From NCBI GenBank assembly GCA_017871115.1, contig JAFCIZ010000005.1:4643501-4707500 (forward strand): a DNA stretch of 64,000 nt, read 5' to 3'. The first letter of the stretch is position 1; each line of letters begins with the position of its first letter. Both the position numbers and the translations under genes were made by a program. The stretch comes from Cunninghamella blakesleeana (taxonomy: Eukaryota > Mucoromycota > Mucoromycetes > Mucorales > Cunninghamellaceae). Positions 46,710 through 48,183 of the stretch are shown here, in pieces. The notes beneath the pieces were generated by a model. The model worked only from the letters and a program-made list of their open reading frames with translations. It made no database searches and was not told the origin of the DNA.

Positions 46710-48183
46710 ATGCAAACTATCAAATGTGTTGTCGTAGGCGATGGTGCTGTTGGGTAAAGAAAACAACAATAATAATAAAAATATTACCTAGACTCTATCT
46801 CTTTTTATATAGAACTCTTTAGTAACAACTAATCTGATATTTTTAACATATATATACATATATATATGTATATATTATTATTATTATTATTATTATTATT
46901 AAAATATATATAGGAGTATGTACCTTATATTTAAACAACAATGATAAAAAGTTTTTTTTTTTTTTTTTCGATATTATCCTGACACTAACCTCTAAATATA
47001 TATTTTTTTTATTATTTATATATTTATATTCGTATTCAACAATACACTTCAACCTTTTTTTTACAATTATTTTTTATAGAAGTATGTTCAATATATATAT
47101 ATATTAAAAAAAGAAAGAAAATAAGCCAAATAAAATGGATTTATATTAGCCAAAGGAGTGAAAGGATTGGAATAGATTGACGTGGAAGAGGAAGGGGAAA
47201 AAAATAATAATAAAAAATGATAGGATGATTTCATATATACTTGTATAAATATATTATTAACCTATTTTATTAATTTTTTTTTTTATCTTGATCATCTCTT
47301 GATGATTTATCTTATTCTATCTAGACTTGTCTTTTAATTTCTTACACCACAAATAAATTTCCATCTGAATATGTTCCTACAGTAATTTTCAAAAAAAAGA
47401 CACTATTTTATAAAATTCATAAAAAAACAAAACATTCAGTAACATATCGACCTCTAATTTTTTTCTTTTTATTTAGGTTTTTGATAATTATGCAGTAACA
47501 GTGATGATTGGTATAAAAAAATAATGATATAAGAGAAAAGAAGAAATATTTATGTGGATACGATAATAATATAAAATATATTACTTTATTATAACAATGT
47601 TTTTATTAGGTGATGAACCTTATACCTTAGGCCTTTTTGATACTGCTGGTAAAATACTGATATATATATATATTAATAAATAGCAATAATAAAAATAATA
47701 AAAATGAACTTTTCATTTTTATTAATATATCCACTTTCTCTATTTTTCCCTTTGTTTTTTCTTTTTTAATAAAAATAACCAATAGGTCAAGAAGATTATG
47801 ATCGACTTCGCCCATTATCCTATCCTCAAACTGATGTCTTCCTTGTCTGTTTTTCCGTCACCTCACCAGCCTCTTTTGAAAACGTAAAAGAAAAATGGTT
47901 CCCTGAAGTTCATCACCATTGCCCTGGTGTCCCTTGTTTAATTGTAGGTACTCAAATCGATTTACGTGATGACCCTAATGTAAATGAAAAATTATCAAGA
48001 CAAAGACAACGTCCTATTAGTTTTGATGCTGGTGAACGTTTAGCAAGAGAATTAGGTGCTGTGAAATATGTAGAATGTTCCGCTTTGACACAAAAAGGTT
48101 TAAAAAATGTATTTGACGAAGCTATCGTGGCTGCTTTGGAACCCCCTGTTAAGAAAAAGTCTAAAAAATGCTCTATATTGTAG
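46710..48183 (+). CDS. CDC42: CDC42, Rho-family GTPase
   Basis: Polarity GTPase acting at the plasma membrane on PAK kinases and formins. Exons 46710-46753, 47325-47381, 47477-47510, 47610-47648 and 47786-48183 encode all Cdc42 motifs: [23 protein letters not shown] switch I, DTAGQEDYD switch [19 protein letters not shown], polybasic KKKSKK and CAAX box CSIL. These exons alone sum to 572 nt and break the frame inside the P-loop, where the Lys codon is missing. Two 2-nt candidates in the 571-nt gap, GA at 46914-46915 and AA at 47080-47081, each sit between AG and GTATGT. They restore GGG AAA ACT (G-K-T) and give exactly 191 residues, the usual Cdc42 length. The micro-exons are inference; gene identity is certain. 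Confidence 0.95.
46914..46915 (+). other. CDC42: candidate 2-nt micro-exon (GA) of CDC42
   Basis: Bounded by TATATATAG and GTATGT. Supplies the last base of the Gly codon and the first base of the P-loop Lys codon. Confidence 0.5.
47080..47081 (+). other. CDC42: candidate 2-nt micro-exon (AA) of CDC42
   Basis: Bounded by TTTTTTATAG and GTATGT. Completes the P-loop Lys codon before the ACT that opens exon 47325-47381. Confidence 0.5.

Follow-up and report, generated by a model that had tools for sequence, protein, structure and literature searches.

How can a CDC42 gene encode its P-loop when four bases of that loop, including the codon for its lysine, lie in neither of the exons that carry the rest of it? 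This question is raised by a CDC42 gene on the + strand (46710-48183) of the window, as we call the whole 64,000-nt stretch of Cunninghamella DNA that was analyzed. The window belongs to a genome of 31.9 Mb, assembled into 12 contigs, and has a G+C content of 23-30% across its 4-kb stretches. CDC42 proteins are marked by a common set of motifs (the P-loop GDGAVGKT, DTAGQE, TQIDL, ECSAL and a C-terminal CAAX box), and in yeasts the gene is essential. A sequence-only reading of this stretch had proposed that the missing bases come from two microexons of 2 nt each, and we followed up this proposal by computational analysis.

The CDC42 gene and its four missing bases

The first coding exon ends with GTT GG/GTAAAG at 46753 and the next exon that can be aligned begins at 47325 (TCTAG/ACTTGT), leaving a gap of 571 nt (46754-47324) between them. 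Joined directly, the two exons are out of frame, and what is missing is four bases of the form NAAR, the end of a Gly codon and the P-loop Lys codon. The exons without the two microexons total 572 nt; these sums and the junction sequences bear out the earlier description of the missing bases and the broken frame. The features of the gene, with the two candidate microexons included, are given below; percentiles refer to 129 introns of the same genome, described in a later section.

46710-48183, + strand: CDC42 gene
46710..46753, + strand: coding exon 1, 14 residues and two bases of the next Gly codon, phase 2 end GTT GG (spliced alignment to human CDC42)
46754..46913, + strand: intron 1, 160 nt, GTAAAG...ATATAG; donor at the 39th and acceptor at the 71st percentile
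46914..46915, + strand: candidate microexon GA, 2 nt, which would end the Gly codon and supply base 1 of the P-loop Lys codon (in the sole restoring chain)
46916..47079, + strand: intron 2, 164 nt, GTATGT...TTTATAG, phase 1, within the Lys codon; donor at the 19th and acceptor at the 86th percentile
47080..47081, + strand: candidate microexon AA, 2 nt, bases 2 and 3 of the P-loop Lys codon (in the sole restoring chain)
47082..47324, + strand: intron 3, 243 nt, GTATGT...TCTAG, phase 0, at the Lys/Thr boundary; donor and acceptor each at the 19th percentile
47325..47381, + strand: exon, 57 nt, 19 residues (spliced alignment)
47382-47476, + strand: intron (spliced alignment)
47477..47510, + strand: exon, 34 nt (spliced alignment)
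47511-47609, + strand: intron (spliced alignment)
47610..47648, + strand: exon, 39 nt (spliced alignment)
47649-47785, + strand: intron (spliced alignment)
47786..48183, + strand: last exon, 398 nt including the TAG stop; C-terminus CSIL

The two dinucleotides stand in the contexts ATATATAG/GA/GTATGT (46914-46915) and TTTTATAG/AA/GTATGT (47080-47081), with TATAG preceding both. Each has an AG acceptor upstream and a GT donor downstream, as expected of an ultra-short coding exon (3 nt or less). Their coordinates, the ATAG before and the GTATGT after each of them, and the intron lengths of 160, 164 and 243 nt are all as the sequence-only reading had given them.

A single chain restores the frame and the P-loop

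We enumerated the chains of AG-to-GT exons that spell NAAR across the gap and obtained one solution, GA followed by AA. The same single 2+2 chain was returned under four different rule sets. Two of these admitted GT donors, with a minimum intron length of 20 or 30 nt, and two admitted GT or GC donors, with a minimum of 30 or 40 nt. Exon 1 was allowed to end at any point within the P-loop and exon 2 to shift its start by 12 nt; taken together, the rule sets cover GT and GC donors paired with AG acceptors. The alternatives to this chain, namely a single 4-nt exon, splits of 1+3, 3+1 or other kinds, GC donors and shifted ends of exon 1 or exon 2, gave zero solutions, and the single 4-nt NAAR exon that had earlier been looked for in vain is indeed absent.

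Spliced alignment led to the same structure. Given human CDC42 and 3 kb of the window, and with uniform intron costs, it recovered both 2-nt exons unprompted (exons of 44, 2, 2, 57, 34, 39 and 398 nt), matching 191 codons with no gaps and no frameshifts and so reproducing the 191-residue product that had been predicted for inclusion of GA and AA. These results support the two predicted 2-nt exons as the only route found by which GT/GC-AG introns would restore both the frame and the P-loop.

Splice sites in the gap compared with introns of the same genome

Splice-site matrices were derived from 129 introns in 28 small-GTPase genes of this genome, leaving out three loci (L019, L066 and L067), introns longer than 400 nt and introns adjoining exons of less than 15 nt. 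The 129 introns have a median length of 119 nt and a 5-95% range of 77-230 nt; a gap of 571 nt is unusually long by this standard, as had been noted. The commonest donor is GTAAGT, with 31 occurrences. The GTATGT donor that follows both candidate microexons had been called perfect, which overstates its quality, since it occurs in 3 of the 129 introns and is at the 19th percentile by matrix score.

The stretch free of AG before the acceptor is 91 nt in intron 1 (84th percentile of real introns, 96th of all AGs) and 128 nt in intron 2 (93rd and 98th, respectively). Branch-point-like CTAAY motifs are found 81 and 91 nt upstream of the acceptors of introns 1 and 2, which is farther than usual: the 90th percentile of the distance between CTAAY and acceptor is 79 nt among the 29 of the 129 introns that have a CTAAY. 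The splice sites of the CDC42 gap are ordinary, not exceptional.

The introns of the gap were also compared with one another. A duplicate origin of intron 2 from intron 1 was rejected, the local similarity of the two being matched by 89 of 500 shuffles; their short AT-rich repeats are unconvincing. The similarity of introns 1 and 3 was reached in 4 of 500 shuffles and that of introns 2 and 3 in 21 of 500, in low-complexity stretches that are nearly all A/T.

Chance expectation for restoring chains

In dinucleotide shuffles of the gap, some restoring chain was found in 986 of 20,000 sequences; a chain with GTRNGT donors and YAG acceptors was found in 1 of 20,000, and one with YAG/NN/GTATGT at every site in none of the 20,000. 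A second background was taken from the genome itself, comprising the window minus the gap region plus 23 loci, on both strands (298 kb). A chain of any quality occurs in 2,576 of 20,788 overlapping background windows (∼12%), and the score of the CDC42 chain is equalled in 17 of them, all of which contain one and the same chain at one place; these rates are rough, given overlapping background windows and a score summed over sites, by which chains of more exons are favored.

The pattern YAG-NN-GTATGT occurs twice in the gap and not at all in the rest of the window, on either strand. There is no genome-wide excess of TATAG-NN-GTATGT, with 40 sites versus 47 for the reversed control pattern; overall, such sites are at chance level in the genome. 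Of the 40 sites, two fall on the same strand at a spacing of 166 nt, in the place where four bases are missing.

Ultra-short exons predicted in other small-GTPase genes

We examined 31 of the 43 other small-GTPase regions of the genome and obtained 29 usable gene models, two regions (L066 and L067) being dropped from the census of 31 because of poor alignment with one frameshift each. Several of the models point to exons of similar size. A Ras-like gene (L068, contig C1, minus strand) has a predicted 2-nt exon, AG, at locus positions 2156-2157 (HFV-G/AG/-TYDPT), which completes the Glu codon of HFVETYDPT. The score of this chain was reached in 25 of 21,510 background windows, representing three distinct chains or places, with the gene's own locus left out.

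The most extreme prediction is in a Rho1 gene (L019, contig C6, minus strand), which reads GCT T/GTGGAA/A/G/ACT, with a 6-nt exon at locus positions 2369-2374 and two 1-nt exons at 2272 and 2167. In this predicted chain, the bases A, A and G of the P-loop Lys codon are drawn from three exons, two of them of 1 nt. Enumeration identified the 6+1+1 arrangement as the sole chain that yields Cys-Gly-Lys with introns of at least 40 nt; its score was reached in 0 of 21,758 background windows, and any chain of that kind was found in 1,974 of 21,758. The final acceptor, GAAAAG before the 1-nt exon G, is weak (1.6th percentile), and the automatic spliced alignment chose exons of 6+2 nt (GA), which puts Arg at the position of the Lys.

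Somewhat longer microexons were predicted in further genes. A second Rho gene (L018) has a 6-nt exon, GGAAAA, encoding Gly-Lys, between introns of 109 and 103 nt. Two Rab6 genes (L062 and L074) have in common an 8-nt exon, CTGGTCAG or CTGGTCAA, which a third Rab6-like gene (L075) does not have, and a Rab2 gene (L077) has exons of 11 and 16 nt. A phase-0 intron directly after the P-loop Lys is common to CDC42, Rho1, the second Rho, the Ras-like gene and Rab2; intron 3 of CDC42 therefore stands at a widely used place, with introns 1 and 2 just upstream of it. The two Rac genes do not have an intron after the P-loop Lys.

The microexon survey covered the small GTPases and, from the window, one phosphatase gene and the NADPH-cytochrome P450 reductase gene. 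The phosphatase gene has 8 introns and no microexons. The reductase gene (7832-10212, minus strand) has 1 intron, and its product agrees with a Cunninghamella echinulata protein at 697 of 721 residues (96.7%), which makes C. echinulata or a very close species the probable host. A further annotated protein of C. echinulata (P0167) is without the stretch ending FFYGSQT, perhaps an annotation slip.

The other GTPase genes bear directly on the alternative that survives best, an assembly or sequencing error or a small deletion, under which a single 571-nt intron would separate Lys from Thr in the true gene, the four bases having dropped out at an exon edge. Such a structure has a parallel in this genome, as the Ras-like gene has a phase-0 Lys/Thr intron after an unbroken Gly-Lys. 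However, the 29 gene models comprise 153 introns, 124 internal exons and 5,679 codons without a frameshift, which speaks against assembly error, with the reservation that a frameshift cost more than an intron in the alignment, so that an error may have been masked. In addition, the Ras-like and Rho1 genes would need comparable errors at the edges of their introns, and a chain of a score that the background equals at a single place would have to be present in the gap by chance. Taking these points together, we consider this alternative unlikely. More generally, a one-off assembly error or a single damaged gene is unlikely because sister small-GTPase genes also need ultra-short exons.

Intactness of CDC42 and other explanations

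The remaining exons of the gene are all open, and the predicted spliced product is 96% identical to the Phycomyces nitens cell division control protein 42 and carries each of the motifs listed at the outset, from the P-loop GDGAVGKT through DTAGQE, TQIDL and ECSAL to the C-terminal CAAX box. Inclusion of both microexons restores the frame and the conserved residues and yields 191 residues; omission of both leads to a stop after 18 residues, omission of either one to a stop after 25, and retention of intron 1 to an immediate stop.

By the terms of the sequence-only reading, a further intact copy of CDC42 that alone is expressed would count against it. We searched the genome and found no second ortholog: the last exon has a 99% match at its own locus and piecewise matches of 27-75% elsewhere, and the other genomic matches to CDC42 are Rac, Rho and more distant GTPase genes. 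Scans of prokaryote contigs (8 loci, all in records with bacterial titles) and viral contigs (0 loci) contained no fungal CDC42 locus. The eight prokaryote loci (L083-L090) are in metagenome-assembled genomes titled Robiginitomaculum, Marinicaulis, Maricaulis and Verrucomicrobiaceae, and their GTPases are 52-59% identical to fungal CDC42 over the best segment.

A second explanation is that the four bases reach the mRNA by another route, through non-canonical splice sites (for example AT-AC), trans-splicing or RNA editing. This is compatible with the sequence, as the enumeration extended to GT/GC donors and AG acceptors only; a canonical solution is nevertheless present and makes special machinery unneeded, and the donors, acceptors and AG-free stretches of the canonical chain are within the range of ordinary introns here. 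We therefore regard such a route as quite improbable. Least probable of all, at the edge of what we would credit, is that CDC42 is a recently damaged, non-functional allele or pseudogene, as the stop after 18 residues on direct joining of exons 1 and 2 might suggest, given that the other exons are open, the protein is so close to that of P. nitens, and no other ortholog of a gene essential in yeasts was found in the genome.

A model of stepwise splicing

We consider it highly probable, judging from the genomic sequence, that CDC42 is intact and that its P-loop is split by three consecutive ordinary GT-AG introns separated by two constitutive 2-nt exons, which would be spliced one intron at a time. 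Stepwise removal is expected because a 2-nt exon can hardly hold acceptor-bound and donor-bound complexes simultaneously. The introns would be removed in succession, each by intron definition. Removal of intron 1 would come first and append GA to exon 1, making the GTATGT behind GA the next donor; removal of intron 2 would then append AA; and removal of intron 3 would come last and join the Lys codon to Thr. We infer both this order and the intermediates. Since any omission leads to an early stop, complete inclusion would be the sole productive path, and incompletely spliced products would be expected to be degraded.

A broader proposal, which we offer tentatively and rate slightly short of an even call, is that chains of 1-2-base exons are routine substrates for the spliceosome of this Cunninghamella and that the P-loop codons of small GTPases are a hot spot for them, the predicted CDC42 Lys codon being cut as A/AA with the preceding Gly codon also cut, and the Rho1 Lys codon being spread over three exons. 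The chain might then act as a fidelity gate, in that only full stepwise removal would yield the nucleotide-binding switch. That full inclusion serves regulation in this way is speculative; what the translations show is that all omission products examined are truncated.

If the stepwise model is correct, two 2-nt exons within one codon, together with 1-2-nt exons in sister genes, would mean that there is practically no lower limit on exon length under intron definition, even in chains, and CDC42 would provide a compact model for stepwise splicing. Gene predictors struggle with such exons, and annotations of Mucoromycota may therefore often be wrong in the P-loops of regulators of polarity and growth. 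The annotated CDC42 of a relative, Umbelopsis vinacea (P0141), reads GAVGK-VFDNY, without the exon directly after the P-loop Lys; this is a suggestive sign, yet it may be a plain annotation slip.

Comparison with known systems

The statement in the sequence-only reading that 2-nt exons would be near the physical limit of splicing needs qualifying, as 1-nt exons have been published from plants (PMC4674806, PMC8831610) and from the Fusarium gene CYP621A (PMC12940212, 2026). A non-exhaustive search of the open-licence literature turned up neither successive exons of at most 3 nt sharing a codon nor microexons in Mucoromycota or in P-loops of the CDC42 family, an absence of reports that carries little weight. 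According to a 2024 paper (PMC11121469), functional microexons had not previously been described in filamentous fungi.

Two systems of stepwise splicing offer partial parallels. Like fungal stwintrons, the CDC42 gap would be a complex intron excised by consecutive canonical steps (PMC6616335, PMC12403724). In a stwintron, however, the outer intron has one of its splice signals (donor, branch site or acceptor) split by an internal intron, whereas the CDC42 gap resolves into three introns, each with an uninterrupted GT and AG, and two coding bases stand between one intron and the next. The proposed order of events also resembles recursive splicing of RS-exons, in which the junction formed in the first step still presents a usable donor (PMC6224609); recursive splicing in those systems can remove an annotated exon again, whereas in CDC42 the two bases must stay in the mRNA.

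The plant genes APC11 and VPS55 resemble CDC42 in having an ultra-short coding exon (PMC4674806, PMC8831610), and for the 1-nt exon of Arabidopsis APC11 the authors propose intron definition and recursive splicing (PMC4674806). Each of these genes, as described, has one 1-nt exon, whereas CDC42 would have two successive 2-nt exons with a shared codon. Adjacent microexons, of 5 nt beside 12 nt, have been described in a rice gene (PMC8831610).

A further likeness is to Fusarium CYP621A, whose 1-nt exon is presented as the first for a fungal gene and is documented by RNA reads from two species and a comparison of 20 orthologs (PMC12940212). As predicted for CDC42, a fungal exon of near-zero length lies between AG and GT, completes a conserved motif and restores the frame, and in both cases it was detected through an overlong intron gap; nearly all of the database transcripts of CYP621A that its authors list are wrong (PMC12940212). 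The two cases differ in that CYP621A has a single such exon, in a P450 gene described as rarely expressed (PMC12940212), whereas the predicted CDC42 chain would comprise two consecutive 2-nt exons in a core signaling gene of the Mucoromycota. Set beside the single 1-nt exons already known from plants and one fungal P450 subfamily, as these papers report them (PMC4674806, PMC8831610, PMC12940212), the novelty here would be two successive 2-nt exons within a core signaling gene.
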